From positions 1,399,501 through 1,463,500 of the forward strand of contig NZ_CP010834.1 of the NCBI RefSeq assembly GCF_001548675.1: DNA of 64,000 bases, written 5' to 3'. A program made the translations under genes and the position numbers. The stretch comes from Methanobrevibacter sp. YE315 (lineage in GTDB: Archaea; Methanobacteriota; Methanobacteria; Methanobacteriales; Methanobacteriaceae). Numbering within the stretch: position 1 is the first letter of the stretch; every line of letters starts with the position of its first letter. The notes under the pieces are model-generated. The model did no database searches, was not told the origin of the DNA, and worked only from the letters and a program-made list of their open reading frames with translations. Shown here piece after piece: positions 45,247 to 64,000 of the stretch.

Positions 45247-47145
45247 ATGAATAAAAAAATAAAAAAAATAATAGTGCCTTTTATATTAATGTTAATCTTT
45301 AATTTGGGTTCCTATTATTTTATGATGGGCAAAAATTTCGGTGAGGGCTTTTCTCCCCATGTAGGCCTTTTAGTCATTTCAGGATTGTTATTTGGACCTT
45401 ATGGTGCCATAGGTTCTGTTTTGGGAAATACATTATGTGACTTAATCAGAGGATATAATCTAGGATTAACAGCAACATCCGAAATCGTCAGCCTAGGAAT
45501 TTCATACCTGGCCTATAAAATATGGTATGAACCCATTAAATCAAGACCTCCAGTCAATAAACCTAGATTAAACAACACATCCAATATCCTCCTATTTTTA
45601 GGAATAGTTATAGTCTGTTCACTATTATTTGCATTGATAAACAAAAAACTATTTAATTTAATGTATCCGGAAACAATTCCCCTCAACATGCAAATCGGAA
45701 TCAGATATTATGTTAATTTTATCAATTCAGGATTCCTATTTGGAATAATTGGAATATGGATTTCTAAAAGAATTGACTTTGTCCATATTCCTAAAAAGTC
45801 TAAAAGAAAATTAAACAAAAAACTATATTATGGAATTGGAATTATTCTAGCAATCTCTACATTGATAATTCTAATTACAGATTACTACTTTAACATAAGC
45901 GAAACAATTTCAGTAATTGAAGTTATACTTCTCACATCTTTAATATTTTTATACACCACCAAACCTATAACAGCAAAGATATATGAAATAACATTCACTT
46001 CTATACCTGAAAAGATAATGAATATTTTCCTTTTAACAACAATGCTTATCGTAATTCTTGGAATGTTAGTTTCATTAGACCCGGTATTAATTAGAGACAT
46101 CGATGAAATCTTTCTTATTGGATTTAATGAAGTTAAGTTATCAATTATGGTATTCATAGATATCTTATTAATTATATTCTTCATCCCGTCCATTGCTGTT
46201 TTGAGGTATGTGGAACACGAAGTGATTTATCCGATAACATCATTTTCGAAAATTGAAAAATTTGTCAAAAAAGGAGATAAAATCGAATCCGAAGGATTAA
46301 TAGACATTTATTCTGATTATTTGAATAACGAAGATGAAATTGGAATGTTAGCCCGCAGTTATACTGATTTAATTAACTATACTAATGAGTATATAGAAAA
46401 TATTCATAAAATTGAAAGTGAAAAAGAAAAAATAAAAGCAGAACTCAACATTGCAGAAAGAATTCAAAAATCAAACTTGCCAACCCATAGCATTGAAAAT
46501 GAAGATTATACGGTTTATGGATTTTCAAAACCTGCAAAAGAGGTGGGTGGAGATTTTTATGATTATTATCCAATAGATGAAGACAATGTTGCCATCATAA
46601 TTGGAGATGCATCTGGAAAAGGAGTGCCTGCCGCTTTGCTTTCAACAATCACCCAATCAATAATTAGGCAAATATTGAAGAGTGAAACTGATCCTTCAAA
46701 GGCATTATATATGCTTAACAACCAATTATGTGAAAACAATACAGAGTGCATGTTTGTTACTTTGTGGTTAGGAATTTACAATAATAAAACAAAAGACATT
46801 ATTTTTTCCAATGCAGGACATAATTCTCCTTTGGTTATGGAAGACGGACAATTCAGAGCTTTAAAAGTCAATAACGGCATCAGCTTAGGAATTATGAGTG
46901 ACTATGAATTCATAACCGAAAAAATTAATATTTCCAAAGGGATAATAGTTTATACTGATGGAATAACTGATGAAAAAAATTCAAATGATGAATTTTATGG
47001 AAAAGACAGAGTTATTGACTTTTTAAATAATCATACTTTTGAAAATAAAGTAATTACAAACCTACTGCAAGACATTGATAGGTTTAAAGGAACTGAAGAA
47101 CAGTTTGATGACATGACCCTCGTACTTTTAGACAGACATAAATAA
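45247..47145 (+). CDS. Membrane-bound SpoIIE/RsbU-type serine phosphatase
   Basis: A 632-residue protein. An N-terminal membrane part (about residues 5-320, roughly ten helices; FGPYGAIGSVLGNTLCDLIRGY resembles substrate-binding membrane sensors) is followed by a short HAMP-like segment (about 330-375) and coiled linker (ESEKEKIKAELNIAERIQKS). The C-terminal PP2C/SpoIIE domain (about 395-632) has VGGDFYDYYP, IIIGDASGKGVPAALL, FSNAGHNSPL and YTDGITDEKN, which hold the metal-binding aspartates. It would dephosphorylate a STAS-domain antagonist in response to a membrane signal. The STAS gene follows on the same strand after 260 bp. Confidence 0.9.
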   Translation: MNKKIKKIIVPFILMLIFNLGSYYFMMGKNFGEGFSPHVGLLVISGLLFGPYGAIGSVLGNTLCDLIRGYNLGLTATSEIVSLGISYLAYKIWYEPIKSRPPVNKPRLNNTSNILLFLGIVIVCSLLFALINKKLFNLMYPETIPLNMQIGIRYYVNFINSGFLFGIIGIWISKRIDFVHIPKKSKRKLNKKLYYGIGIILAISTLIILITDYYFNISETISVIEVILLTSLIFLYTTKPITAKIYEITFTSIPEKIMNIFLLTTMLIVILGMLVSLDPVLIRDIDEIFLIGFNEVKLSIMVFIDILLIIFFIPSIAVLRYVEHEVIYPITSFSKIEKFVKKGDKIESEGLIDIYSDYLNNEDEIGMLARSYTDLINYTNEYIENIHKIESEKEKIKAELNIAERIQKSNLPTHSIENEDYTVYGFSKPAKEVGGDFYDYYPIDEDNVAIIIGDASGKGVPAALLSTITQSIIRQILKSETDPSKALYMLNNQLCENNTECMFVTLWLGIYNNKTKDIIFSNAGHNSPLVMEDGQFRALKVNNGISLGIMSDYEFITEKINISKGIIVYTDGITDEKNSNDEFYGKDRVIDFLNNHTFENKVITNLLQDIDRFKGTEEQFDDMTLVLLDRHK

Positions 47146-47405
47146 CCTGATTGCTGCAACTACTTTTAAATGTTAGTATCTAGCCAATGGTAATGTTTCT
47201 TATACTTCATTTTGTTTTGGACAGCTGCATGTTATGGAATTCCCAGTTTAGCAAAAACCGGTCCAACGAATATTCCCTTACAACATCACCACCCCCCATT
47301 TAAAGTATGATTTGATAATGCCTTGATTTTCAAGATTATATTAAAAAAATTTAAATTATAAAATCGGCCATAATTAATAATATAATTAAGAAATATGTGA
47401 TTTAC

Positions 47406-47702
47406 ATGAATCTGATAAAGCAATATAATGAAAAAGAATTAACAATATCAGTTAAAGGTAAAATCGATACAAATATTTCACCTGACTTTCAAAACGAAAT
47501 AATGGACGAAATGGGCAAATTTGATTCATTAATAATTGATTTTACAGAGTTAGAATACATTTCAAGTGCAGGTTTAAGAGTTTTACTCATCATTGGAAAA
47601 GAATTAAAACCTAAAAACATTCCTTATACAATTAAAGTTAATGATGCTATTAGAGAGATTCTTGTAATTTCTGGCTTTGATAATGTATTGAATTTGGAAT
47701 AA
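47406..47702 (+). CDS. STAS-domain protein, anti-sigma-factor-antagonist (RsbV/SpoIIAA) type
   Basis: A 98-residue single-domain STAS protein. The phosphorylatable serine lies in YISSAGLRVLLIIGKEL, the normal position in RsbV/SpoIIAA; the N-terminal beta strands (ELTISVKGKIDTNISPDF) also fit. ATG 47406 has GTGAT 5 nt before it; an upstream GTG adds three residues. Since archaea have no sigma factors, its partner must be another HATPase-like protein; the best candidate is the C-terminal domain of the convergent MATE protein. Confidence 0.9.
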   Translation: MNLIKQYNEKELTISVKGKIDTNISPDFQNEIMDEMGKFDSLIIDFTELEYISSAGLRVLLIIGKELKPKNIPYTIKVNDAIREILVISGFDNVLNLE

Positions 47703-47868
47703 AAGTTAAAGGGAGATATGCTCCTCATTCAGAATAATCTATTGACAGTTTAAAATTGCCCTTATGTAGTTTAGCTAATTAAAATCCTAATGAATGAAGA
47801 ATCCAGTAGCATGCTCCATCCTGACCTTTTTCTCAAAGTTTACAAAAAATGTAATGGCAAAAAAATAT

Positions 47869-49551
47869 TTAGTTCTTATCCATTACATATTCTATTGTAT
47901 TGAATCCCAAAACTTCGGCATATTTTAAAAGGCCTTCTGGGAAGCTATGTTTTATGTGCTCAAGATTTTCCTTTTCTCCATCGTATTTAATGTCAACATG
48001 GATATTGTCATCATAATCAATGACTAACACTTCAATATATGTGCCATGGGGATTTGTATCAAGAATCACGTCAAAAATCTTGTTGACATTGGCACAGAAT
48101 TCCTCATCAGCATTCAAACCTTTTAGATGTTGCAAACATTCTTCTCTTGCTTTCAAATCATTGTCTGTCAAAACGAAGTTTTGGGTTTTACTGACCAAAT
48201 CCTTTTCAATGAAGAACAGACCACTGTATTTCGGTTCTCTTTTTTGAATCAATTTAACAATAATGACTGTGATAATCATTGTAATTATGCAAGATACAGG
48301 AAATCCTAGCCATATTCCATCGGATCCTATTAACTCATACAATACGAACACTGAAATCAATGGCAGTACAAGTGTTTCAAGAACTGAAAGCACTGTTGAG
48401 AGCACAGACCTTTCAATAGCTTCGTAATAGAATATAAATAAGCTAGGAAGTATTGAGCATAGGAAGAGGAATGAATATAATTTAATCGCATTTTTTGCAA
48501 ATTCAGCAATGTCCAGATGGTTGAAGTTATAAAGGGCGAGGAATCCTTCAGGCCATATCCATATCAACAGTGTTAGAATTATTGCAAAAGCTACTGAAAT
48601 GATGATAGAATTTCTAATTAAATGATTTAGATTAGCATAATCGTGCTTTGCATAATATATCGGAACGATTGAAGTTAATGTTTCTGAAATTCCAACATCA
48701 ATAATACTTGCAATTACCAGTAAATCCATACATAACAAATAGGTGGCCAATCCTGCATCACCTAATGTTACAGCTATGAAAGAGTTCATAATGTAAACGA
48801 ATATTATGTCGAAAATACCCATACTTGCACTAGGAAAACCTACTTTTATCATTTCTGCACTGCTTTTAATGAATGTTTTAAAGGCAAGAGCCGCACGGGA
48901 AAACCTGAATGTCCTTTTTGGATTGCGGATGTATAATAAACATATTAAAAGGCCTACAGTATATCCGATAAATGTTGCAAGTGAAGCGGAACTCATGCCC
49001 ATTCCTGATGATAAGAATAAATAATCGAGGATTATATTGATTATATTGGCCACGATAATTACTACTGATGCGAAGTTTGGCTGGCCATCCACACGGATAT
49101 ATTGGGTAAGTACTCCAGAAACCGTGGATACGATAAAACAGGCATATAAAAATGTGGAATATTGTAATACAAGAGGTTTTGTAGCTGGTGTTGCCCGTAA
49201 TATTGTGGCTAGAGGATCCATAAAAAATAAACAGATAATTGCCATTATAAAAGAGCCAATGAATGATAATGCAATGGACACTGTAAAGTAACGATTACTT
49301 CCTTCAGTATCAAATTCCGCTTTTTTGTTCAATGCTAAAATTTGTCCTCCAAGACCAAATAACCATTCGAAAACTGTTATTAATAATATTACAGGTTCCA
49401 ATATTTCAATAGCTGCAGCAGCATTTTCACCCAAAAATGACGTTACGAAAAAGCTGTCGACAACTGAGCTAATGTTCAAAGCCATTACTATAAGTAATGT
49501 TGGCAATAATAATTCCTTAAATTTACTGTCAGCAATTTTGAAATTCTTCAT
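47869..49551 (-). CDS. MATE-family exporter with C-terminal RsbW-like (degenerate HATPase) domain
   Basis: A 560-residue protein. Residues 1-440 are a twelve-helix MATE transporter (LLPTLLIVMALNISSVVDSFFVTSFLGENAAAA, and a repeat half around 230-440). From about 450 a cytoplasmic domain follows whose strands (TYIEVLVIDYDDNIHVDIKYDGE) and ending (YAEVLGFNTIEYVM) resemble the RsbW/SpoIIAB-type histidine-kinase-like ATPase fold, where LGxN also occurs at the end. The N-box expected as ExxxN reads IFDVILDTN, so ATP binding may be lost. It starts 12 bp after the NRPS stop on the same strand and is the obvious exporter of the NRPS product. Confidence 0.85.
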   Translation of the reverse strand: MKNFKIADSKFKELLLPTLLIVMALNISSVVDSFFVTSFLGENAAAAIEILEPVILLITVFEWLFGLGGQILALNKKAEFDTEGSNRYFTVSIALSFIGSFIMAIICLFFMDPLATILRATPATKPLVLQYSTFLYACFIVSTVSGVLTQYIRVDGQPNFASVVIIVANIINIILDYLFLSSGMGMSSASLATFIGYTVGLLICLLYIRNPKRTFRFSRAALAFKTFIKSSAEMIKVGFPSASMGIFDIIFVYIMNSFIAVTLGDAGLATYLLCMDLLVIASIIDVGISETLTSIVPIYYAKHDYANLNHLIRNSIIISVAFAIILTLLIWIWPEGFLALYNFNHLDIAEFAKNAIKLYSFLFLCSILPSLFIFYYEAIERSVLSTVLSVLETLVLPLISVFVLYELIGSDGIWLGFPVSCIITMIITVIIVKLIQKREPKYSGLFFIEKDLVSKTQNFVLTDNDLKAREECLQHLKGLNADEEFCANVNKIFDVILDTNPHGTYIEVLVIDYDDNIHVDIKYDGEKENLEHIKHSFPEGLLKYAEVLGFNTIEYVMDKN

Positions 49552-49563
49552 TGAATCACCTAT

Positions 49564-52500
49564 TTACTCAAAATAATGTACCTCAATCAAATATTCGATG
49601 AATCGTTTAAGATATCCTTCATCACATTCAGGCCAGCTAAATCCTAAAGTGTTAAGAATGTCAAGGGTTAAATCCATTTTGACAAGTTCACCTGTATCAC
49701 TTTCGTGGGATTCATTTTCGCCAGTCTCTTCAATGTCGAAGTCATCTATGGTTAAATCAGCTGTAATAATTCCCTGGATATTCTCGTCCATGTTTTGCTC
49801 ATAGATTTTTCTAAACTCTTCATGGGTGACTTCCTCGATACCAAATCCGAATGAATTTAAAGCATCAATGATGTCCCTGGTCGGTATTAATTTGTCACTT
49901 ACTGCATGGAATACTATGGATTCTTTCGGAGTTCTTGCAAGAGCAAGTATTGCTTTTGCCACATAATCTATTTGACTTAGTTCAACTATTTCTTCAGATA
50001 TTGCTGGAGTGGTAGCTTTGAGATTCTTGAGGGCTTTGATACCATTCAGGAATGCATTTGTGTCATAATTTCTCTGGAATACTCCATCAGAGTGACGTGC
50101 CATAAGGTTTCCTACTCTTATTATTTTTGTATTCAAACCAGATAAAGCTTTTTCAAGCACCATTCTTTCTGACAGGAATTTACTGTTAAGGTATTTGTTG
50201 GACAAGTCTTGTCCCCAGTATAACGTTTTTTCATCACAATGCACATTGCTGAGGCCCGTATCTTCAGTGTATTCATCCAAAACACTGGTTGTTGATATTT
50301 GCACGTAAGTGATGTTGTTTGCTTCAGCAAATTCAAGTCCGTTGATTACTCCATCAACATTGACCCTAAAGATGTAATCGTCATGAGTATAGTGTTTTAC
50401 AATGGCTGCACAGTTGATTATTGTGTCAATTGGATAATTTTCTAACTTTTTAAAGTCATCCAAGTTGGTTATGTCGCCTTCACTTAGGATTATGCGTGAT
50501 CCAATAAGGTCGCTGAAGTCTTCGTCGAAGTAGTAATTCAATAAATCTATGAAACGCTCTTCGCAGGAATCGAATTGGCCTTTTCTTAACATACAGTAAA
50601 TGGTTCCCTCTTCATTCTTGATGTATTCATATAACACATGAACACCCAGAAAACCAGTCACCCCAGTCAGCAATACATTGCCTAACTCCAGGTTTTTACC
50701 TTTGGCAAAGTTTTCAAAGGTATTTTTCTCTAAAAGATTATTTATTTCACCATAATCGTAGTTTTCAATAATGCCAATATCCAAATCATCTGTGTTTTCA
50801 TCACCTGAAAGGAAACTAGCCAATTTTCTTGGAGTTTGGTTTTTGAAGATGTCATCATATTTCACGGCATAGTCTTGTTTGAGTAGCTCAATGATTAGTT
50901 TTGATGCGATAAGTGAGGTTCCTCCTATTTCAAAGAAGTTATCTTCTGCACCAACAATCTCTATGTCAAGTATGGATGAGTATATTGCACAGATTGTTTG
51001 CTCTAGCTTGTTTTTAGGAGGGACATATGTTAATTCTAATTTAGGTTCAGGTAATGCCTTTACATCTGTTTTGCCGTTAGGGGTTTGAGGTATTTCATCA
51101 ATCTGCATGAAGACTGTCGGAACCATATATTGTGTAAGTCTTTCACTTAAGTATGCCTTGAGTGCATCCTTGTCGATTTTTTCATCTGCTGTGAAGTATG
51201 CGCATAAATGTTCATTGTTTCTGATTTTCTTGATTACAACAATATTCTGTCTGATATTAGGGAATTGGGATATGTTGGATTCGATTTCTCCGATTTCTAT
51301 TCTCAGTCCTCTGAGTTTGATTTGGTTGTCGATTCTTCCCTTAATGTCAATGTCTCCATCAGGAAGTTCAATTGCATAATCTCCACTCTTATAGTATGGG
51401 ATACCATCAATTTTCAGATATACCTCTTCTGTTTTATCCGGCATGTTGTAGTATCCCTTACCTACACCGACACCACCTATGTACAGCTCACCCATAACTC
51501 CTTTAGGCAGGAGTTTTCCGTCAATATCTCTTACATCAGTTATGTAGTTTCTTAAAGCTTTACCGATTGTAATGTTTTCAGGATCAGTTATTTCCTTATA
51601 GTTTGAAGCAATTGTAGCCTCAGTTGGTCCGTAACTGTTATATATTGCCGCATCACAGTATTTTTTTACTCCATTGAACGCCTGGGCTGAGAACTGCTCT
51701 CCTCCCATAACGATACATTTTGCACAATCAATCACATCACAGAACTCTTCAAATTCAAGATAGGATAACAATCTTGAAGGTGTGAATTCCATTACTTCAG
51801 GTTTTTCACGTTTAATCAGTTTGATTAGCTCAGCGATGCTTTTTATTTCATCATCATTTGCAAAGATGATTTTTATTCCGTTGGTTATACCTGTCAGAAT
51901 ATCTTCAAGAGATGTATCAAATGCGATTGTTGCAATACTTAATAGATTGCTGTATTCACATTTAGGGTTAGCTTCAGTTTGGTTACATGCATTTTCATGA
52001 CTAATCATTACACCTTTTGGATTGCCTGTTGACCCTGATGTATAAATCATGTATGCCAGATCATCTGGAGTAAGGTCAATATCAGTATTCTCAACATTGC
52101 TTTCTTTGAGCAATTCTTTAATAGATAGTGAATTTGGTGCAAGACCATCTACATTAATTATGTAATCTGCTTGACTGTTTTCATAGATGTACTCAATTCT
52201 TTCTTTAGGGAACTTTAAATCAAGTGGTATGAAGGCACAACCTGCTTTTAATACACCGATTATTGAAGCAATCAAGTCACTGTTACGAGGGAGCATAATC
52301 AATATATTGCTTCTTGGCTTGACGCCTTTTTTAATCAATGCATTTGCTATACGATTTGACTTTTTGTTAAGCTCATCATAGGATAGTGTCTCATCTGTTG
52401 CAACAAGTGCAATTTCATCTGGCTTTTCATCCACTTGTGCTTCAAAACGTCTGTGTAAGAATGGGTTGACTACCTCTTCAAATTCAGGCAGCATTAAGTT

Positions 52501-55500
52501 GGTTGCAAGCTCAATGTCTTCAATTCTCAATTTATCCATATCATTCACGAAGAATTGTACTAATATGTATTTTATTGCCCTCAGGAATTCCTTAGCATAA
52601 TCTTCAGTATAGATTTGGTCATTGTACTCGATGAAAATTCCAATGTTTTCCCCATCATCATAAATGTCCAGGTTAATTTTGTAGTCTGTTGCTACGGTTC
52701 CGTCAAGCTCTTCCATGGCATAGGTATTTCCATCCATTTCCAGTTGGTCTGTTTCGAATGCTCCGTGATATGCATAGAAGAATTCAGGTTTTAAGTGATA
52801 TTCTTCGGAAAGTTTGGTATATGGATAATTGCTGTGCACTAAAGCGTCTTTCCAGGATTTATCTACCACCTTAATGAAGTCCTCAACCATCATTGACCTG
52901 TTTTCACTGCCGACCATGATTGGAAGTGTCTTTACCAGCATTCCCTGCGTATTGAAGTAGTTTGAGTTGGACCTGCCGTTGAAGATTGTTGTTATCAGTG
53001 CTTTATCTGAGAATGTAAACTTGTTTAGAGCCAGAATTGTAGCGCTCATGAACAGCACATTTGGACTTATTGAATGGTCTTGACAGAACAGCCTTACAAA
53101 GTTGGAATTAATAGAATCATAGATGAGTTTAATCTTACCGTCATCCGGATTTCCATTAATGTTAGGAGTTAAAACCGTAGACTCAAATCCTTGAGCAAAC
53201 CTATCTTTATAATACTCTTTTGAAACTTCATTTTCACTAAGTTCTGTTTCAATTAGGCTGTAAACGAATCCGTCTACAATTTCCTCATTGATATCTCCTC
53301 CATTGTACAGGCTGAGTATGTCTTCATAAAGAAGGTCTATTGAAACTCCGTCTGTAATTATATGGTGGATGTCAAAGAACAGTACTGTTTCTGCTGGAGT
53401 TTTATAGATTTTGAATCTGAATAGCTGATTGTCATCCAATGGAATATACTTGATATCGTTGTCCATCATTTCCCTGTTGGTAATTGAATCAACTTCTACA
53501 ATTTCAATTTCTTCAATTTCGACATCATCACATCTTTTTTGCCTTAATTCACCCTCAGAAGTAGTGATTATTCTTGTTTTAAGATATGGATGTGCTTCAA
53601 TTGTATCAATTATTGCCTGTTTGAGTTTAAATGGATCGATATTGCTGTCGAAACGAATGGCTGAAGGCATTGTGTACTTGATTTCATCGGTTTGTGCACA
53701 TTCATAGTAGATACCTAACTGATTTGATGTCAATGGGAATGAATCCATTGCCTCTGCGGTTTTGATAAGCTCTTCGACATCAATCTGTATGTTAATGTTG
53801 TTGTCAATCTTATCTGCAAGGTTTTGTATTGTTGGATTATTGAATAAGTCAGTTATCTCAATGTTAACGCCAGTCTCATTGTATATCAATGAATTCAGCT
53901 TCATCAATGTTAATGATGTGAATCCTATGGAGTACAAATCATCGGTTATACCAAATTCTTTAGCGCTTGAAAGTGATGAAACTAATTCAAATATTTTTTT
54001 CTCGGTTTCAGTTTCAGGTTGAACGAAATCAAGTGCCAGTGAAGGTTCAGGCAATGCTTTTATGTCTGTTTTTCCGTTTGGAGTTTGAGGCATTTCATCA
54101 ATCTGCATGAAGACAGTTGGAACCATGTATTTAGTCAACTTGTTTTGCAAGTAACGTTTTAAGAGTTTGATGTCAATTTTTTCTTCTCCAGTGAAGTAAG
54201 CACATAAATGCTCACTGTTATTGATTTCTTTAATTACAACAACAGCATTTTTGATGTTCGGGAATCTGTTAATGTTGGATTCTATTTCTCCGATTTCTAT
54301 TCTCAATCCTCTGAGTTTGATTTGGTTATCGATTCTTCCTTTGATGTCTATATCTCCGTCAGGAAGTTCTATTGCATAGTCTCCGCTTCTGTAGTATGGG
54401 ATATCGTTTATTGTCAGGTATACTTCTTCGGTTTTTTCAGGCATGTTGTAGTATCCCTTACCTACGCCGACACCACCGATGTATAGCTCTCCCATTACAC
54501 CTTTTGGAAGTAGTTTCCCATCTATGTCTCTTACTTCAGTTACATAGTTTTTAAGGGCTTTTCCGATTGTAATGTTTTCAGGGTCGGTTATTTCCTTATA
54601 GTTGGAAGCTATTGTTGCTTCTGTCGGTCCGTAACTGTTGTAAACTTTAGCATCACAGTATTCTTTAACTCCGTTGAATGCTTTGGCTGAGAACTGTTCT
54701 CCTCCCATCACAATACATTTTGCACAATCAATCACTTCACAGAACGTGTCAACTTCTAGATAGGATAACAGTCTTGATGGAGTGAATTCCATGACTTGCG
54801 GTTTTTCCTTTTTGATTAATTGTGTTAAGTCAACGACATTCTTGATTTCAGAATCGTTTGCAAAGATTATTTTTATTCCGTTGGTGATACCGGTTAAGAT
54901 ATCTTCCAAAGATGTATCGAATGCTATTGTCGCAATACTTAACAGATTATCGTATTCTGCCTTTGGATTTGCTTCAACTTGGTTACATGCATTTTCATGA
55001 CCAATCATTACACCTTTAGGTTTTCCAGTGGATCCAGAGGTGTAAATCATGTATGCAGTATCGTCAGGAGAGATTTCTATGTCAGGATTTTCGATATTTT
55101 CCTCTTCAAGCAGTTCTTTGATGTCTAACGTAATATCATAAGTTTCGTTTGATATTATATAATCTGCCTGACTGTTTTCGTATATGTACTCGATTCTTTC
55201 CTTAGGATATTCCATATCGATTGGAATAAATCCACAGCCAGCTTTCAGGATACCGATTATTGATGCAATTAGGTTGCTGGTCCTTGGAAGCATGATTAGA
55301 ATACTGTGTCTTGGTTCAACTCCACGTCTAATCAATCCATTGGCAACCCTGTTACTCATTTCGTTCAATTCCTTGTAAGTGTATTCCTCTCCATTTGAAA
55401 CCAGTGCGATTTCGTCAGGTTTGAGTTCCACTTGCTTTTCAAAGCGTTTGTGGATAAATGGAGTTTCTAATGGGGTGAATGTTGGTAACTCTTTGGTTGT

Positions 55501-58500
55501 TTCAAGTTCAACATCACAGATTCTCATGGTATTGATGTCATTAGTTACAAATTGGTCTAGAATTGTTTTGGTTGAATTTAGGAATGTTTCAATATATCCT
55601 TCGGAATATAATTGGTCATTGTATGATATGCTTATTTCAATAGATGTATCATGTTTGAACACACTTAAATCTATTTTATATTCCATTATTCCATTGCCGT
55701 CGTCCAGTTCATAGTTTTCATAGTCATTACCACTCATTTCAAGACTTTCAGAGTCGGAATCTTCATCATATGAATAGAAGAATTCAGGTTTCAACTGATA
55801 TTTGTCGGCAATCTTTGTGTATGGATATATGCTGTTGTTTATTGATTCAATCCATGTTTTGTCAACTGATTTGATGAATTCTTCAATTGTTTGTTCTCTG
55901 TTTTCCTGTTTGATAATCAATGGGATTGTTTTTACTAAAAATCCTTGGGTATTGAAGTAATTAGGGTCTGCTCTTCCGTTGAATATTGTTGTTATCAATG
56001 TTTTGTCGCTGAATGTGAATTTGTTCAGGTTCAATATGATTGCAGACATGACCAGTGAATTGTGTCCGATTGAGTTTTCAAGACAGAATTCGTCAATTTT
56101 GTTTATGTCAATGTTTATACCAGCGGTTTCCTGTTTTCCTTCTTCAGGATTTCCATTGAGGTCCGGAGTCAGTATAGTGGAATCGATTTCCTGTGATAAT
56201 TTGTCGTCAAAGAATTTTTCGGCTGTTTCATATTTCTCACTGTTTTGAAGGTCATGTTCAATAAGGCTGAAGACATATCCATCAACGATTTCCGGTTCAA
56301 TGTCTTCAAGGTTATATGCTCTTCCTATTTCTTCAAATAATATGCTTTGTGATGCTCCATCTGTGATTATGTGGTGGAAGTCACTGAAGAGTATGATTTC
56401 ATCAGAAGTGTCATATATTTTGAATCTGAACATTTGTTCGCCGTCTAATGAAAATGCTTTTACATCGTTTTTGATAATCTCCTCATCAGTTATTGAGTCG
56501 ACTTTGACGATTTCGATTTCATCTATTTCAGCATCATCGTTTCTGTACTGTTTTATGCTTCCATCATCTGAGAATACAATTTTAGTTTTAAGATATGGAT
56601 GTGCTTCAATTACTTTTATTACTGCTTCTTTTAATTTTTCAGCATCAATTTCATTATCGAATCTTGTAACTGATGGCATTGTGTATTTGATTTCACCAGG
56701 ACTTTGCATACACTCATAGTATACACCCAGCTGATTTTCTGTCAATGGGAAGTATTCCATTTTTCCGGACATTTCGACAAACTCATTCAGTTTGGAAGCG
56801 TTATCATCACTGCCTAAAATCTCATCCGCTAGCTTTTTGATTGTTGGGCTGTTGAATAAAATTGATATGTCAAGGTTCACATTCATTTCCTTGTAGATTA
56901 ATGTGTTTAGCTTCATTAATGTCAAGGAGGTGTATCCTATGGCATACAAATCATCGGTCGTACCGAATTCATCGGTTTCGATTAGCTCTGATGCAATGTC
57001 GAACAATTTCTGTTCAGTTTCATTTTCAGGCTTTATATTTTCAAGTACTAACTTAGGTTCAGGCAATGCATTTATGTCTGTTTTTCCGTTTGGTGTTTGT
57101 GGTATTTCATCCAACTGCATGAATACTGTTGGAACCATATAATATGTCAGTCTTTCTTTTAGGAATTCTTTCAATGAATTTTTGTCAATTTCCTTTTCAG
57201 CTGTGAAGTAGGCGCATAGGTGATCGTTATCGTTTATTTCTTTGATTACGACAACGGCATTTTTGATATCATTGAATTTGTTGATGTTGGATTCGATTTC
57301 ACCAATTTCTATTCTTAGTCCTCTGAGTTTGATTTGATTGTCTATTCTTCCTAGGAGTTCTATTTCACCGTCTGGTCTTGAGATTGCGTAGTCTCCACTT
57401 CTGTAGTATGGAATATCGTTGATGGTCAGGAATACTTCTTCTGTTTTATCTGGCATATTGTAGTATCCTTTACCTACACCGACACCTCCAATGTATAGTT
57501 CTCCCATTACTCCGCAAGGCAGGAGTTTTCCATCGATATCACGTACGTCAGTGACGTAGTTGTATAGTGGGTACCCAACGGTTATGTCGTTGACATCTGT
57601 TATTTCCTTATTGTTTGATGTGATTGTGGTTTCTGTTGGTCCGTAACTGTTGTATACGATTGCATCAGAGTGTTTTCTGAAGTTTTCATATACTTTGGTT
57701 GAGAACTGTTCTCCTCCGAGGAAGAGGCATTTCAAGCAGCTAATTGCTTTACAGAATTCAGGCACTTCAAGGTGTAACGCCAGTCTGGACGGTGTGAAAT
57801 CTGCAACTTCCGGTTTATGTTTATTTATTAATTCAGTTAGTTCTGGTATGTTTTTGATTTCTGAATCGTTTGCAAATATGAGTTTAATTCCATTTGCAAG
57901 TGCTGTGAATATATCATCCATAGCTACATCGAAAGAAATTGTTGTAATACATAATAAGCTTTCGTATTCTGATTTTGGATTTCCAACTTCGTTACAGATG
58001 TTTTCATGTGAAATCATTACTCCTTTTGGATTTCCTGTTGAACCTGATGTATAAATCATATAGGCCAGGTCATCTGGTGTAATTTCAACATCTGGATTTT
58101 CGATGTTTTCCTCTTCAAGCAGTTCTTTGATGTCTAAGAAGTTGTCATGAGTTTCATTGGATATTATGTAGTCTGCCTGACTGTTTTCATAGATGTATTC
58201 AATCCTTTCCTTAGGATATTCCAAATCTATTGGGATATATGCACATCCTGCTTTTAAAACACCGAGTATTGATGCAATCATGTCGCTGTTTCTTGGAAGC
58301 ATTACTAAAACATTATTTCTTGGTTCAACTCCACGTTTGATTAATGCATTGGCAACCCGGTTACTTAATTCATTCAATTCCTTGTAAGTGTACTCTTCTT
58401 CATTTGAAATCAGTGCGATTTCGTCAGGTTTGGTTTCAACTTGTTTTTCAAAGCGTTTGTGGATAAATGGAGTTTCAACTGGAGTGAATGTTGGTAACTC

Positions 58501-61500
58501 TTTGGTTGTTTCAAGTTCAACATCACAAATTCTCATGGTCTTAATGTCATTAGATACAAATTGCTCTAGAATTGTCCTGGTTGACTCGAGGAATTTTTCA
58601 ATATAATCTTTAGAATATAATTGATTATTGTATGATACGTTTATATCAATAGCTGTACCATAATTGAACACATTAAGGTCTATTTTATATTCCATTATTC
58701 CATTGCCATCATCAAGTTCATAGTTTTCAAAATCTTTGCCATCAATTTTTAGACTTTCAGAATCGGAACCTTCATCATAGGAATAGAAGAATTCAGGTTT
58801 CAACTGATATTTACCAGCAATCTTTGTATATGGATATATGCTGTTGTTTATTGATTCAATCCATGTTTTGTCAACTGATTTAATGAATTTTTTAATTGTT
58901 TGTTGTCTGTTTTCATGTTTAATAATCAGAGGCAGTGTTTTAACTAAAAATCCTTGGGTATTGAAGTAATTCGGATTGGCTCTTCCGTTGAATATTGTTG
59001 TTATTAGTGTCTCATCGCTGAATGTGAATTTGTTCAGGTTCAATATGATTGCAGACATGAATAGTGAATTGTGCCCGATTGAATTTTCCAGACAGAACTC
59101 ATCAATTTTGTTTATGTCAATCCTTATGGTAGCAGTTTCCTGTTTTCCTTCATCAGGATTTCCATTAAGGTCGGGAGTCAGTACAGTGGAATCGATTTCC
59201 TGTGATAACTTGTTGTCAAAGAATTTTTCGGCTGTTTTATATCTTTTGCTGTTTTGAAGGTCATGTTCAATAAGGCTGAAGACATATCCGTCAACGATTT
59301 CCGGTTCAATGTCTTCATTGTTATAGGCTTTTCCTATTTCTTCAAATAAGAGACCTTGTGATGCTCCGTCTGTGATTATGTGGTGGAAGTCACTGAAGAG
59401 TACGATTTCATCAGAAGTGTCATATATCTTGAATCTGAACATCTGTTCACCATCTAATGGAAATGCTTTTACATCGTTTTTGATGATTTCCTCATCGGTT
59501 ATTGAATCGATTTTAACTATTTCGATTTCATCTATTTCAGCATCATCGTTTCTGTACTGTTTTATGCTTCCATCATCTGATACAATTCTTGCTTTAAGAT
59601 ATGGATGGAATTCAATAACTTTAATGATAGCTTCTTTTAATTTTTCAGCATCAATTTCATCATCGAATCTTGTAACTGATGGCATTGTGTATTTGATTTC
59701 ACCAGGACTTTGCATACACTCATAGTATACACCCAGCTGATTTTCTGTCAATGGGAAGTATTCCATTTCTCTGGACATTTCAACAAAATCATTCAGTTTG
59801 GAAGTGTTATCATCGCTGTCCAGAATCTTTTCCGCTAACTTTTTGATTGTTGGGCTGTTGAATAAAATTGATATGTCAAGGTTCACATTCATTTCCTTGT
59901 AGATTAATGTGTTCAGCTTCATTAATGTCAAGGAGGTGTATCCTATGGCATACAAATCATCGGTCGTACCGAATTCATCGGTCCCGATTAGCTCTGATGC
60001 GATGTCGAACAATTTCTGTTCAGTTTCATTTTCAGGTTTTACGTTTTCAAGCTCTAACTTAGGTTCAGGCAATTTTTTGGTATCTGTTTTACCATTCGGC
60101 AATTGTGGAATTTCATCCAATTGCATGAATACTGTTGGAACCATGTAATATGTTAATCTTTCTTTTAGGAATTCTTTCAGTGAATCGGTATCTATCTCTT
60201 TTTCAGCTGTGAAATATGCGCATAGGTGGTCGTTGTTGTTGATTTCCTTGATTACAACAACGGCATTTTTGATATCTTTGAATTTGTTTATGCTTGATTC
60301 AATTTCACCTATCTCTATTCTCAATCCTCTGAGTTTGATTTGATTGTCGATTCTTCCTTTGATGTCTATGTCTCCGTCAGGAAGTTCTATTGCATAGTCT
60401 CCGCTTCTGTAGTATGGGATATTGTTGATTGTTAGGTATACCTCTTCGGTTTTGTCTGGCATGTTGTAGTATCCTTTACCAACACCGACACCACCAATGT
60501 ACAGTTCACCCATTACTCCTTTAGGCAGAAGCTTTCCATCAATGTCTCTTACTTCAGTTACATAATTTTTAAGGGCTTTTCCGATTGTAATGTTTTCAGG
60601 ATCGGTTATTTCCTTATAGTTGGAAGCTATTGTTGCTTCTGTCGGTCCGTAACTGTTGTAAACTTTAGCATCACAGTATTTCTTAACTCCGTTGAATGCT
60701 TTGGCTGAGAACTGTTCTCCTCCCATGACTATACATTTGGCGCAGTCAATCACTTCACAGAACTCTTCTACTTCAAGATAGGATATTAATCTTGAAGGGG
60801 TGAATTCCATTACTTGCGGTTTGTGTTCTTTGATTAATTTGATTAAATCCACGATGTTTTTGATTTCGGAATCGTTTGCAAATATTATTTTGATGCCATT
60901 TGTGATTCCTGTCAGGATATCTTCAAGGGATGTGTCGAATGCAATTGTTGCAATGCTTAATAGATTGTCATATTCACATTTAGGGTTTGATTCAGCCTGG
61001 TTGCATGCGTTTTTGTGACCAATCATTACTCCTTTTGGATTTCCTGTTGATCCTGATGTGTAAATCATGTATGCAAGATCATCTGGAGTAATGTCAACAT
61101 TAGGGTTTGATGTATTTCTTTCTTCAAGCAGATCATAGATGTCCAGCGCATTGTCTGCTTTTCCATCTGCTGTTATGATGTAATCGGCCTGACTGTTTTC
61201 GTAGATGTATTCAATTCTTTCTTTAGGATATTCCAAGTCAATTGGGATGAATGTGCATCCTGCCTTCATGATACCTATTATGGTCGCTATGAGGTTACTG
61301 TCCCTTGGAAGCATTGCCAGAACATTGCTTTTTGCTTTAACACCTCTATTTATGAGAGCATTGGCTATACGGTTTGCCTTGATGTTAAGTTGCTCATTGG
61401 TTAATGTGGCATCTGTTGCAACAAGTGCAATGCTGTTTGGGTTTGTTTCAACTTGTTTTTCAAAGCGTTTGTGGATAAATGGAGTTTCCACAGTGCTGAA

Positions 61501-64000
61501 TGTAGGTATTTCTTTGGTGGTTTCAAGTTCCACATCACAAATCACCATTTCATTAATGTCATTTTCCATGAATTGGCCTAAAACGAGTTTCATGGAGTTT
61601 ATAAATGTTTTGATGTAGTCTTCTGTATATAATTCGTCATTGTATTGAATTATAAAGTCTATTTGTTCTTCTGAAACATCAACATCGAAGTTTATCTTAT
61701 ATTCTGTTGTATTCAGGTCATCTGCAACCAATTCTCTTTCTTCATAAACTGTTCCATTTATCATGCGAGGTTCTGAATTATAGAACTCCTGATATGTGAA
61801 GAAAAATTCCGGTTTCAATTGATAAGCTTCTGCAATACTTGTGTATGGGTAAATACTGTTAGTCATGCTGTCTTTCCATACTTCATCAACATCATTTATG
61901 AATTCTTTAATTGTCACTTCCCTATTTTCGTTGTTGAATATTAATGGGAGTGTTTTAACCAGGAAACCTTGTGTATCATAGTATTGCGGATTGGATCTTC
62001 CATTGAAAATGGTTGTTATCAGTGTTTTGTCACTGAATGTGTATTTGTTTAAGGTTAATATAAGGCTTGAGAGGAACAATGAGTTTTGACTGAATGAATG
62101 GCGATTACAGAATTCCTTAATTTCATTGGCATCGATTGTTTCAATTACACTTTGCAGTTTGCCTTCATCCGGATTACCGTTAATGTTAGGGGTTAACACT
62201 GTAGATTCGATTTCCTGTGATAGTTTTTCATCGAAGAATTCCTTAGCTTTATCGTAGGCATCACTATTTTTATGCTTATCCTCAAGAAGGCTGTAAACAT
62301 ATCCGTCGACAATTTCAGCATTTGCTTCGTTTCCTTCATAAATATTTGCAATGTCATCAAAGAAATTAATCTGTGATACACCGTCAGTGATTAAGTGGTG
62401 GAAATCAGTAAAGAGCACTATTTCATCAGGTGTCTTATATATTTTGACTCTGAATAACTGTTCACCGTAAAGGGAAAATGCCTTTACATCATTTTCAAGT
62501 ATTTCTTCATCACTTATTGAATCCACTTCAACAATTTCTATTTCATCCATTTCCACATCATCACATCTTTTCTGTTTCAGCTCTCCTTCATCATTGATGA
62601 GAATTCTTGTTTTGAGATATGGATGAGCATCTATTGTTTTGATTACTGCTTCTTTTAATTTTTCCGCATCAACATCACTACCTAATCTCATGGTAGTCGG
62701 CATTGTGTATTTGATTTCCCCAGGACTTTGCATACACTCATAGTATACGCCAATTTGATTATCAGTCAACGGCAGGTAATCCATGCTATTTGCCAATTCA
62801 ATGATTTCAGATAAATCTGAATCCTCATCACTGTCTTCGATTTGTGATGCGAGCTTTCTGATTGTTGGGTCATTGAACAGTACTGAAATGTCTATGTTTA
62901 CACCCATTTCAGCATAGATTAATGAGTTGAATTTCATTAATATTAATGATGTAAATCCGATTGCGTATAAATCATCGGTTACACCGAATTGATCAGTGTT
63001 GATGAGTTCTGCTGCAATTTCAAAGAGTTTTTCTTCCAATTCGTTTTCTGCTTTTACGTTTTCTAAATCCAATTTCGGTTCAGGCAGCGCTTTCACATCA
63101 GTTTTACCGTTTGGTGTTTGAGGCATTTCATCAAGTTGCATGTATGCGGTAGGAATCATATACTTGGTTAATTTATCTTTTAGGAAGTCTTTTAAGCTAC
63201 GGGAGTCAACTTCATCCTCAGCAGTATAATAAGCGCATAAATGGTCGTTGTTGTTGATTTCCTTGATTACGACAACTGCCTGTTTTACTGATGGGTATTT
63301 GTTGATGTTGGATTCGATTTCACCGATTTCTATTCTCAGTCCTCTGAGTTTGATTTGATTGTCTATTCTTCCTTGAATGTCTATTTCACCATTTGGAGTT
63401 TCAATAGCATAGTCTCCGCTTCTGTAGTATGGGATATCGTTGATGGTTAGGAATACCTCTTCTGTTTTATCAGGCATGTTGTAGTATCCTTTACCTACAC
63501 CGACACCACCGATGTACAGTTCACCCATAACTCCTTTAGGCAGGAGTTTTCCATCAATATCACGCACATCAGTAACATAATTGTCCAATGGGAAACCTAC
63601 AGTAATATCATTGCTGTCTGTGACTTCTTTGTTGTTTGATGTGATTGTGGTTTCTGTTGGTCCGTAACTGTTGTATACGACTGCATCGGAGTATTTTTTG
63701 AAGTTTTCATATACTTTGGTTGAGAACTGTTCTCCTCCAAGGAATACGCATTTCAGACAGCTTATTACTTCGCAGAATTCCGGCACTTCAAGATAGGATG
63801 CAAGTCTTGACGGAGTGATTTCTGATACCTCAGGTTTTTCATCATCAATTAATCTTATTAACTCTGGAATGTTTTTGATTTGAGTATCACTTGCCAATAT
63901 CAATTTCAATCCGTTTGAAAGGGAAGTCAGGATATCATCTACTGATACGTCGAATGATATTGTTGCAAGACATAACAAACTTTCATATTGTGATTTAGGG
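49564..64000 (-). CDS. Multimodular non-ribosomal peptide synthetase with terminal reductase, 5'-truncated by window edge
   Basis: At least 4811 residues; the frame is still open at 64000 and the true start is outside the window. Domain order is A1(partial)-PCP1-C2-A2-PCP2-C3-A3-PCP3-C4-A4-PCP4-C5-A5-PCP5-reductase. The A domains carry YTSGSTG(N/K)PKG, YGPTE, GELYIGGVGVGKGYYN, GRIDNQIKLRG and NGKTD motifs. The phosphopantetheine serines are at about 62947, 59932, 56926, 53914 and 50914. Each C domain has an intact HHxITDG or HHLITDG (62380, 59365, 56356, 53347). The C-terminus has LTGVTGFLG and YLNSK (YxxxK), i.e. an NAD(P)H thioester reductase that releases the peptide as aldehyde or alcohol. 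There is no epimerase or thioesterase. The modules repeat about every 3.0 kb with long near-identical stretches. The MATE exporter follows. Confidence 0.95.
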   Translation of the reverse strand, partial: PKSQYESLLCLATISFDVSVDDILTSLSNGLKLILASDTQIKNIPELIRLIDDEKPEVSEITPSRLASYLEVPEFCEVISCLKCVFLGGEQFSTKVYENFKKYSDAVVYNSYGPTETTITSNNKEVTDSNDITVGFPLDNYVTDVRDIDGKLLPKGVMGELYIGGVGVGKGYYNMPDKTEEVFLTINDIPYYRSGDYAIETPNGEIDIQGRIDNQIKLRGLRIEIGEIESNINKYPSVKQAVVVIKEINNNDHLCAYYTAEDEVDSRSLKDFLKDKLTKYMIPTAYMQLDEMPQTPNGKTDVKALPEPKLDLENVKAENELEEKLFEIAAELINTDQFGVTDDLYAIGFTSLILMKFNSLIYAEMGVNIDISVLFNDPTIRKLASQIEDSDEDSDLSEIIELANSMDYLPLTDNQIGVYYECMQSPGEIKYTMPTTMRLGSDVDAEKLKEAVIKTIDAHPYLKTRILINDEGELKQKRCDDVEMDEIEIVEVDSISDEEILENDVKAFSLYGEQLFRVKIYKTPDEIVLFTDFHHLITDGVSQINFFDDIANIYEGNEANAEIVDGYVYSLLEDKHKNSDAYDKAKEFFDEKLSQEIESTVLTPNINGNPDEGKLQSVIETIDANEIKEFCNRHSFSQNSLFLSSLILTLNKYTFSDKTLITTIFNGRSNPQYYDTQGFLVKTLPLIFNNENREVTIKEFINDVDEVWKDSMTNSIYPYTSIAEAYQLKPEFFFTYQEFYNSEPRMINGTVYEERELVADDLNTTEYKINFDVDVSEEQIDFIIQYNDELYTEDYIKTFINSMKLVLGQFMENDINEMVICDVELETTKEIPTFSTVETPFIHKRFEKQVETNPNSIALVATDATLTNEQLNIKANRIANALINRGVKAKSNVLAMLPRDSNLIATIIGIMKAGCTFIPIDLEYPKERIEYIYENSQADYIITADGKADNALDIYDLLEERNTSNPNVDITPDDLAYMIYTSGSTGNPKGVMIGHKNACNQAESNPKCEYDNLLSIATIAFDTSLEDILTGITNGIKIIFANDSEIKNIVDLIKLIKEHKPQVMEFTPSRLISYLEVEEFCEVIDCAKCIVMGGEQFSAKAFNGVKKYCDAKVYNSYGPTEATIASNYKEITDPENITIGKALKNYVTEVRDIDGKLLPKGVMGELYIGGVGVGKGYYNMPDKTEEVYLTINNIPYYRSGDYAIELPDGDIDIKGRIDNQIKLRGLRIEIGEIESSINKFKDIKNAVVVIKEINNNDHLCAYFTAEKEIDTDSLKEFLKERLTYYMVPTVFMQLDEIPQLPNGKTDTKKLPEPKLELENVKPENETEQKLFDIASELIGTDEFGTTDDLYAIGYTSLTLMKLNTLIYKEMNVNLDISILFNSPTIKKLAEKILDSDDNTSKLNDFVEMSREMEYFPLTENQLGVYYECMQSPGEIKYTMPSVTRFDDEIDAEKLKEAIIKVIEFHPYLKARIVSDDGSIKQYRNDDAEIDEIEIVKIDSITDEEIIKNDVKAFPLDGEQMFRFKIYDTSDEIVLFSDFHHIITDGASQGLLFEEIGKAYNNEDIEPEIVDGYVFSLIEHDLQNSKRYKTAEKFFDNKLSQEIDSTVLTPDLNGNPDEGKQETATIRIDINKIDEFCLENSIGHNSLFMSAIILNLNKFTFSDETLITTIFNGRANPNYFNTQGFLVKTLPLIIKHENRQQTIKKFIKSVDKTWIESINNSIYPYTKIAGKYQLKPEFFYSYDEGSDSESLKIDGKDFENYELDDGNGIMEYKIDLNVFNYGTAIDINVSYNNQLYSKDYIEKFLESTRTILEQFVSNDIKTMRICDVELETTKELPTFTPVETPFIHKRFEKQVETKPDEIALISNEEEYTYKELNELSNRVANALIKRGVEPRNNVLVMLPRNSDMIASILGVLKAGCAYIPIDLEYPKERIEYIYENSQADYIISNETHDNFLDIKELLEEENIENPDVEITPDDLAYMIYTSGSTGNPKGVMISHENICNEVGNPKSEYESLLCITTISFDVAMDDIFTALANGIKLIFANDSEIKNIPELTELINKHKPEVADFTPSRLALHLEVPEFCKAISCLKCLFLGGEQFSTKVYENFRKHSDAIVYNSYGPTETTITSNNKEITDVNDITVGYPLYNYVTDVRDIDGKLLPCGVMGELYIGGVGVGKGYYNMPDKTEEVFLTINDIPYYRSGDYAISRPDGEIELLGRIDNQIKLRGLRIEIGEIESNINKFNDIKNAVVVIKEINDNDHLCAYFTAEKEIDKNSLKEFLKERLTYYMVPTVFMQLDEIPQTPNGKTDINALPEPKLVLENIKPENETEQKLFDIASELIETDEFGTTDDLYAIGYTSLTLMKLNTLIYKEMNVNLDISILFNSPTIKKLADEILGSDDNASKLNEFVEMSGKMEYFPLTENQLGVYYECMQSPGEIKYTMPSVTRFDNEIDAEKLKEAVIKVIEAHPYLKTKIVFSDDGSIKQYRNDDAEIDEIEIVKVDSITDEEIIKNDVKAFSLDGEQMFRFKIYDTSDEIILFSDFHHIITDGASQSILFEEIGRAYNLEDIEPEIVDGYVFSLIEHDLQNSEKYETAEKFFDDKLSQEIDSTILTPDLNGNPEEGKQETAGINIDINKIDEFCLENSIGHNSLVMSAIILNLNKFTFSDKTLITTIFNGRADPNYFNTQGFLVKTIPLIIKQENREQTIEEFIKSVDKTWIESINNSIYPYTKIADKYQLKPEFFYSYDEDSDSESLEMSGNDYENYELDDGNGIMEYKIDLSVFKHDTSIEISISYNDQLYSEGYIETFLNSTKTILDQFVTNDINTMRICDVELETTKELPTFTPLETPFIHKRFEKQVELKPDEIALVSNGEEYTYKELNEMSNRVANGLIRRGVEPRHSILIMLPRTSNLIASIIGILKAGCGFIPIDMEYPKERIEYIYENSQADYIISNETYDITLDIKELLEEENIENPDIEISPDDTAYMIYTSGSTGKPKGVMIGHENACNQVEANPKAEYDNLLSIATIAFDTSLEDILTGITNGIKIIFANDSEIKNVVDLTQLIKKEKPQVMEFTPSRLLSYLEVDTFCEVIDCAKCIVMGGEQFSAKAFNGVKEYCDAKVYNSYGPTEATIASNYKEITDPENITIGKALKNYVTEVRDIDGKLLPKGVMGELYIGGVGVGKGYYNMPEKTEEVYLTINDIPYYRSGDYAIELPDGDIDIKGRIDNQIKLRGLRIEIGEIESNINRFPNIKNAVVVIKEINNSEHLCAYFTGEEKIDIKLLKRYLQNKLTKYMVPTVFMQIDEMPQTPNGKTDIKALPEPSLALDFVQPETETEKKIFELVSSLSSAKEFGITDDLYSIGFTSLTLMKLNSLIYNETGVNIEITDLFNNPTIQNLADKIDNNINIQIDVEELIKTAEAMDSFPLTSNQLGIYYECAQTDEIKYTMPSAIRFDSNIDPFKLKQAIIDTIEAHPYLKTRIITTSEGELRQKRCDDVEIEEIEIVEVDSITNREMMDNDIKYIPLDDNQLFRFKIYKTPAETVLFFDIHHIITDGVSIDLLYEDILSLYNGGDINEEIVDGFVYSLIETELSENEVSKEYYKDRFAQGFESTVLTPNINGNPDDGKIKLIYDSINSNFVRLFCQDHSISPNVLFMSATILALNKFTFSDKALITTIFNGRSNSNYFNTQGMLVKTLPIMVGSENRSMMVEDFIKVVDKSWKDALVHSNYPYTKLSEEYHLKPEFFYAYHGAFETDQLEMDGNTYAMEELDGTVATDYKINLDIYDDGENIGIFIEYNDQIYTEDYAKEFLRAIKYILVQFFVNDMDKLRIEDIELATNLMLPEFEEVVNPFLHRRFEAQVDEKPDEIALVATDETLSYDELNKKSNRIANALIKKGVKPRSNILIMLPRNSDLIASIIGVLKAGCAFIPLDLKFPKERIEYIYENSQADYIINVDGLAPNSLSIKELLKESNVENTDIDLTPDDLAYMIYTSGSTGNPKGVMISHENACNQTEANPKCEYSNLLSIATIAFDTSLEDILTGITNGIKIIFANDDEIKSIAELIKLIKREKPEVMEFTPSRLLSYLEFEEFCDVIDCAKCIVMGGEQFSAQAFNGVKKYCDAAIYNSYGPTEATIASNYKEITDPENITIGKALRNYITDVRDIDGKLLPKGVMGELYIGGVGVGKGYYNMPDKTEEVYLKIDGIPYYKSGDYAIELPDGDIDIKGRIDNQIKLRGLRIEIGEIESNISQFPNIRQNIVVIKKIRNNEHLCAYFTADEKIDKDALKAYLSERLTQYMVPTVFMQIDEIPQTPNGKTDVKALPEPKLELTYVPPKNKLEQTICAIYSSILDIEIVGAEDNFFEIGGTSLIASKLIIELLKQDYAVKYDDIFKNQTPRKLASFLSGDENTDDLDIGIIENYDYGEINNLLEKNTFENFAKGKNLELGNVLLTGVTGFLGVHVLYEYIKNEEGTIYCMLRKGQFDSCEERFIDLLNYYFDEDFSDLIGSRIILSEGDITNLDDFKKLENYPIDTIINCAAIVKHYTHDDYIFRVNVDGVINGLEFAEANNITYVQISTTSVLDEYTEDTGLSNVHCDEKTLYWGQDLSNKYLNSKFLSERMVLEKALSGLNTKIIRVGNLMARHSDGVFQRNYDTNAFLNGIKALKNLKATTPAISEEIVELSQIDYVAKAILALARTPKESIVFHAVSDKLIPTRDIIDALNSFGFGIEEVTHEEFRKIYEQNMDENIQGIITADLTIDDFDIEETGENESHESDTGELVKMDLTLDILNTLGFSWPECDEGYLKRFIEYLIEVHYFE
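50800..63060 (-). repeat. Tandem NRPS module repeats with ~3.0-kb period
   Basis: The PCP serine codons are spaced 3015, 3006, 3012 and 3000 bp apart. Blocks around PCP2 (59868-60062) and PCP3 (56862-57056) are almost identical at DNA level, and the flanking A-domain motifs are identical in protein across modules. This suggests repeated module duplication and gene conversion. Confidence 0.8.

Follow-up and report, generated by a model that had tools for sequence, protein, structure and literature searches.

What would a bacterial type of partner switch regulate in an archaeon, and what would its parts be doing beside a peptide exporter? Partner switching is best known for freeing sigma factors, which archaea, to our knowledge, do not possess. 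The question is raised by a stretch of 64,000 nucleotides (the window) from the genome of Methanobrevibacter sp. YE315 (2.27 megabases in a single contig, NZ_CP010834.1; window positions 1,399,501 to 1,463,500), in which genes for a membrane phosphatase, a STAS protein and a MATE exporter lie next to a nonribosomal peptide synthetase (NRPS) gene. Our preferred answer, to which we give a probability of roughly 0.6, is that the exporter itself is the direct target of the STAS switch, with no sigma factor involved. It is very probable that the module is real and that the C-terminal tail of the exporter is a pseudokinase derived from RsbW. The genes concerned are the following, by position in the window.

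45247..47145, plus strand: membrane SpoIIE/RsbU-type serine/threonine phosphatase, 632 amino acids (aa), assigned from Pfam SpoIIE, motifs and its phosphatase clade

47406..47702, plus strand: RsbV/SpoIIAA-like STAS protein, 98 aa from the ATG (Pfam STAS, TIGR00377, ISSAGLR)

47869..49551, minus strand: MATE exporter of 560 aa that carries an additional domain at its C-terminus (Pfam MatE, AlphaFold/Foldseek)

47869..48237, minus strand: predicted RsbW/SpoIIAB-like pseudokinase tail of the exporter, residues 439-560 (AlphaFold, Foldseek, profiles, residue losses)

49564..64000, minus strand: C-terminal part of the NRPS, with a reductase-like domain at its end (open reading frame, condensation domains)

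The phosphatase combines an N-terminal transmembrane part with a C-terminal phosphatase domain (residues 444-630 match Pfam SpoIIE at an expectation value (E) of 2e-42), and GGDFYD, GDASGKG, YTDG and DDMT are all intact in its translation. It belongs to the clade that contains the phosphatases from STAS-kinase-phosphatase operons of relatives; its match to NCBIfam SiaA (E 1e-11) is far under the cut-off of that model. The STAS protein matches Pfam STAS (E 2e-11) and, slightly under the cut-off, TIGR00377 of NCBIfam (E 1e-13). It carries the serine motif ISSAGLR, and the SSAG serines are present in every homologue displayed with it. Its open frame begins with a GTG at 47397; judging from the homologues, the ATG at 47406 is the more likely start. 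The STAS gene lies tail-to-tail with the MATE gene, which follows the NRPS gene on the same strand after a gap of 12 base pairs (bp). The exporter belongs to the MATE family in sequence (Pfam MatE, E 4e-20) and in fold: the AlphaFold model of the full-length protein (predicted local distance difference test, pLDDT, 89.7) consists of a MATE part and the tail domain, and matches solved MATE structures at E 1e-13. The NRPS frame runs past the end of the window and encodes 8210 aa in total, with the condensation domains in one frame.

What, then, is the tail? In a Pfam scan it gave no credible match, the curated cut-off of HATPase_c_2 (PF13581) not being reached. The AlphaFold model of residues 439-560 had a pLDDT of 89.1 and a predicted template modelling score (pTM) of 0.84, and all 12 of its best Foldseek matches in the PDB were entries for SpoIIAB, UsfX or RsbW (E 2e-4 to 2e-3, probability 1.00, template modelling scores 0.55-0.62). 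A second MATE protein of the same genome (locus L003) has a tail that matches HATPase_c_2 at E 1e-4 in the genome search and at E 1e-3, under the cut-off, in the Pfam scan; the tails of many of its orthologues also match this family, and a free kinase used as a single-sequence query recovered such tails at E 7e-6. The tails of the exporter family fall into groups B, A2 and A1, the last of which includes that of the window. A few group-B tails exceed the HATPase_c_2 cut-off. In hhalign comparisons, the B tails matched the kinase family at E 1.2e-9 (reversed or shuffled controls gave 0.05 or worse), and the tails of the window type (A) matched the B tails at E 4e-5. Sequence searches of the PDB with the tail and kinase alignments yielded nothing useful, so the fold assignment depends on the AlphaFold model together with the homology traced via the B tails; since B tails are in the alignment behind that model, these two kinds of evidence are not fully independent. 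As modelled, the window tail is a fold of the RsbW/SpoIIAB (HATPase_c_2) type.

Does such a domain still act as a kinase? The catalytic N-box Glu was present in all 20 free kinases and all 21 B tails, in 1 of the 14 A2 tails and in none of the 14 A1 tails, each of which has Lys in its place. The N-box Asn is kept in B (21/21) and lost in A1 (14/14). The G1 Asp is kept in the kinases, the B tails (21/21) and most A2 tails (12/14), and is Tyr in every A1 tail. A glycine-rich ATP-lid motif was found in every free kinase but was missing from all B and A tails. Nearly invariant across the tails are the G1 Gly and a C-terminal LG(F/L)N motif. To judge from these residues, the ATP site erodes in the order B, A2, A1. 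Because the N-box Glu and Asn, the G1 Asp and the lid are lost in all 14 A1 tails, the window tail was not classed as an active RsbW kinase, and on the same residue counts we rejected it as the circuit's own kinase.

A kinase is encoded elsewhere. A single stand-alone HATPase_c_2 kinase was detected in the genome (555372-555749, E 6e-15), with its N-box, G1 and glycine-rich lid intact. Its gene overlaps a STAS gene and is adjoined by a phosphopantetheinyl transferase (PPTase) gene, and the kinase-STAS pair is divergent from a second NRPS-MATE pair, in which the MATE gene (that of L003) overlaps the end of the NRPS gene. In relatives a SpoIIE phosphatase usually comes after the STAS-kinase pair, which is not so in this genome. 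As the only stand-alone kinase detected stands beside the second NRPS-MATE pair, the circuit of the window seems to be one half of something larger, in which its phosphatase would join the distant kinase in a single relay common to both loci. All of the partner-switching parts (a phosphatase, STAS proteins with the serine motif and an RsbW-like kinase) are thereby predicted in the genome. An earlier note on this DNA had anticipated much of this. It had named the membrane phosphatase, the serine-bearing STAS protein and the exporter directly behind the NRPS gene, all now confirmed by Pfam, motifs and gene positions; it had likened the exporter C-terminus to RsbW, which structure prediction bore out; and it had suspected a degenerate N-box, with the kinase elsewhere or absent, of which the Glu-to-Lys change, the loss of Asn and the kinase at 555372-555749 are the counterparts.

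Is the association with NRPS genes peculiar to one genome? We searched 67 genomes of the genus, 47 of them with NRPS condensation domains. The MATE family, STAS and the phosphatase were present in all 47, and among the 20 genomes without these domains the MATE was found in 2 and STAS in 5; such genome-wide counts are conditional on the search tool used and on its cut-offs. Fisher tests of co-occurrence with NRPS gave 2e-14 (MATE) and 4e-11 (STAS), values that overstate the evidence because the genomes share ancestry and not all are complete. Of the family MATEs, 75 distinct ones had sufficient sequence upstream for inspection, and in 65 of these an NRPS reductase came directly before the MATE. 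The tail-to-tail arrangement of STAS and MATE genes recurred in ten genomes. At 12 loci, a phosphatase-kinase-STAS set was divergent from an NRPS-MATE pair, STAS and NRPS being separated by 37-107 bp, and at a locus of another member of the Methanobacteriaceae (L134) the order NRPS-MATE-STAS-kinase-phosphatase was entirely co-directional. On the STAS tree, the MATE-linked label was more clustered than in most shuffles. One clean origin of the MATE-linked STAS proteins was considered and rejected, since five label changes were needed on the tree.

The association also extends beyond archaea. Rumen Clostridia (L131 and L132) have a pair of NRPS and MATE-HATPase genes, and a genome of the same order (L147) has an NRPS gene, a MATE gene and a convergent STAS gene, the layout of the window. 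Another clostridial locus (L148) encodes the MATE-HATPase fusion with a more complete ATP site and no adjoining NRPS. For the scan of genome contigs the mixed A and B alignment was too diverse and the B-only alignment worked; the MATE family proved sparse in Clostridia, where at E 1e-50 it was found in 4 of the 396 genomes of a single order. Since the window's layout occurs in a clostridial genome, the module is not purely archaeal. An archaea-only module is ruled out by these loci, and transfer between the two domains is likely. A bacterial origin of the NRPS genes was already suspected in a 2010 paper on M. ruminantium (PMC2812497). That paper lists, in strain M1, phosphatases, an anti-sigma antagonist and MatE around the NRPS mru0068 (mru0066-0071), and an antagonist, a phosphatase, a kinase and a PPTase (mru0513-0516). 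These are similar neighbourhoods of the kind that the earlier note had mentioned for M. ruminantium. The conserved linkage on which that note had staked its proposal was found in the survey of relatives; its archaeal setting holds for the module in methanogens but not for the MATE-HATPase fusion, which is not unique to archaea.

Several related arrangements were noticed during the survey. The genome of the window encodes three more MATE proteins in long frames (558-592 aa), the remaining ones found being 456-493 aa. One long MATE of a fourth type (L017:9543-11306, plus strand, 587 aa) has no adjoining NRPS, and its tail matches the kinase and B-tail profiles weakly. Another follows the third NRPS of the genome and three tandem ATP-grasp-like genes (L018:7391-15956, minus strand), and its tail aligns with the RsbW fold only with difficulty. 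At L126:10001-14817, two NRPS-MATE pairs stand face-to-face, with a group-B and a group-A MATE 1.4 kilobases apart. A tandem pair of SpoIIE phosphatases lies far from the window (L016:4866-8688, minus strand); comparable tandem pairs turn up across many genomes of the genus, in separate clades. In a further four genomes (G060:C18, G040:C18, G059:C7 and G012:C23), distant STAS proteins (about 30% identity) occur together with tandem phosphatases and with HATPase domains whose frames span about 583-720 aa, possibly a second switch system. A frame of 544 aa in genome G003 (L078:1397-3031, minus strand) joins the first 70 residues of an RsbW-like kinase to a later part of a SpoIIE phosphatase, which could reflect a deletion that fused two neighbours or an assembly error. 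In the window itself, a short open reading frame next to the phosphatase gene (44458-44859, minus strand) has an adhesin-like start, with a signal peptide and Asn-rich sequence, and may be a broken adhesin gene.

How might these parts work together? We propose that the exporter replaces the sigma factor as the regulated protein of a partner-switching module. The membrane SpoIIE/RsbU-type phosphatase would read a signal and dephosphorylate the STAS serine, and the RsbW-like kinase encoded beside the other NRPS-MATE pair would rephosphorylate it. In one of its phospho-states, STAS would dock on the kinase-dead MATE tail and so switch the export of the nonribosomal peptide on or off, much as the earlier note had suggested; the phosphorylation of the STAS serine, its binding to the tail and the gating of export are steps that we infer. 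Three observations weigh against this proposal. A STAS neighbour was found for 3 of the 14 group-A1 MATEs and for a minority of A2. Compared directly by hhalign, A tails and kinases gave no significant match. In the RsbV-RsbW structure, the RsbV serine is touched by Glu49 of RsbW (PMC7340262), and since the A tail is without that Glu, a contact of this tail with STAS would have to be of another kind. Where A1 has its invariant Lys instead, the phosphorylated form of STAS might even be what the tail reads. The broader claim, that a natural-product MATE is the terminal partner of a sigma-free switch by way of a pseudokinase tail, in a module common to methanogens and Clostridia, has in our judgement about an even chance of being right.

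Of the other explanations, the one that survives best is that the phosphatase-STAS-kinase switch controls NRPS transcription through an archaeal regulator, with the MATE tail tethering or titrating STAS or the kinase at the membrane. This is near the reading of the 2010 paper, which assigns the switch genes to sensing of the environment and control of NRPS expression; the passages found in it do not describe the MATE tail (PMC2812497). In the M. ruminantium transcriptome under lauric acid, moreover, two MatE genes, one NRPS gene and the PPTase gene rise together (PMC5816558). Classical partner switches target transcription, and the STAS-kinase-phosphatase genes that diverge from NRPS genes do so at the short distance of 37-107 bp. 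We nevertheless consider a transcriptional role unlikely. There is, as far as we know, no archaeal sigma factor to be controlled; the loci read contain no recurrent transcription regulator; it is the exporter itself that bears the fused RsbW-like domain; and STAS adjoins MATE even where no kinase is nearby.

It is improbable that the tail is an active second STAS kinase, in which case the exporter would signal its own condition to the switch and would not be the regulated protein. All 21 B tails retain the G1 Asp and both N-box residues, Glu and Asn, which would suit such a role, but the glycine-rich lid is missing from every A and B tail, A1 has lost the other three residues as well, and the B exporters have the gene of a complete kinase beside them. 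For the window protein, its residues bring an active kinase close to excluded; group-B tails may yet be active. A decaying remnant with no present role, whose STAS and phosphatase neighbours persist by history only, would agree with the eroded ATP site of A1 and A2 and with the A MATEs that have no STAS neighbour. This is very improbable for a tail that is 71-85% identical among A1 relatives, gives a compact and confident model, keeps the G1 Gly and LG(F/L)N almost fixed and has STAS adjacency in ten genomes and one bacterium. Hardly credible is a tail that links the exporter to the NRPS, perhaps by way of a carrier protein, for peptide channelling while the switch genes act elsewhere, for although the tailed MATE is nearly always the first gene after the NRPS, the tail fold is that of anti-sigma kinases, which bind STAS proteins, and the clostridial MATE of the same type at L148 has no NRPS nearby.

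Direct control of the exporter by STAS thus remains our preferred reading. A switch of this sort in an archaeon, with a kinase-dead RsbW fold as part of an exporter, suggests that natural-product export is controlled directly at the post-translational level, and for the NRPS clusters of rumen methanogens it names a sensor, a kinase, a switch protein and a likely target. In the searchable literature (subscription papers apart), we found no RsbW-like tail on such exporters and no exporter as the target of a partner switch. What seems to be new is the kinase-like exporter tail; the gene neighbourhood in M. ruminantium has been known since 2010. The natural-product MATEs SolL, WgkD and MbnM (NCBIfam) are weak matches to the window MATE and likewise have the MATE fold and a biosynthetic context, but their models, of 410-458 positions, are without such a tail.

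Every proposed step has its precedent among known systems. SiaABCD of Pseudomonas aeruginosa resembles the proposed working in that a STAS-like protein acts on an effector other than a sigma factor: SiaC, whose phosphorylation is controlled by a PP2C-type phosphatase and a kinase, acts directly on SiaD (PMC7647112, PMC8457831). Fusion and linkage suggest a similarly direct action on the exporter. In SiaABCD, however, the effector is a diguanylate cyclase, and the parts of those papers that were read describe no RsbW-like domain on SiaD, whereas the effector in the window is an exporter. In MlaB-MlaF, too, the STAS protein MlaB binds and controls a transporter, and a phosphomimetic change at Thr52 of MlaB weakens the binding (PMC7367683); the partner there is an ABC ATPase and not a MATE, and the system has no established kinase, phosphatase or RsbW-like domain. 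In SypA-SypE of Vibrio fischeri, the STAS protein SypA is controlled through phosphorylation of a conserved serine outside sigma control (PMC4517449), but kinase and phosphatase are combined in one protein. As in the RsbU-RsbV-RsbW and SpoIIE-SpoIIAA-SpoIIAB switches of Bacillus, the archaeal parts comprise a SpoIIE-type phosphatase, a STAS protein with a serine motif and an RsbW-like kinase encoded next to STAS; unlike those switches, they include no sigma factor (none is known from archaea, and no search for one was made), and an RsbW-like tail, predicted to be kinase-dead in the group of the window, is fused to the MATE exporter.

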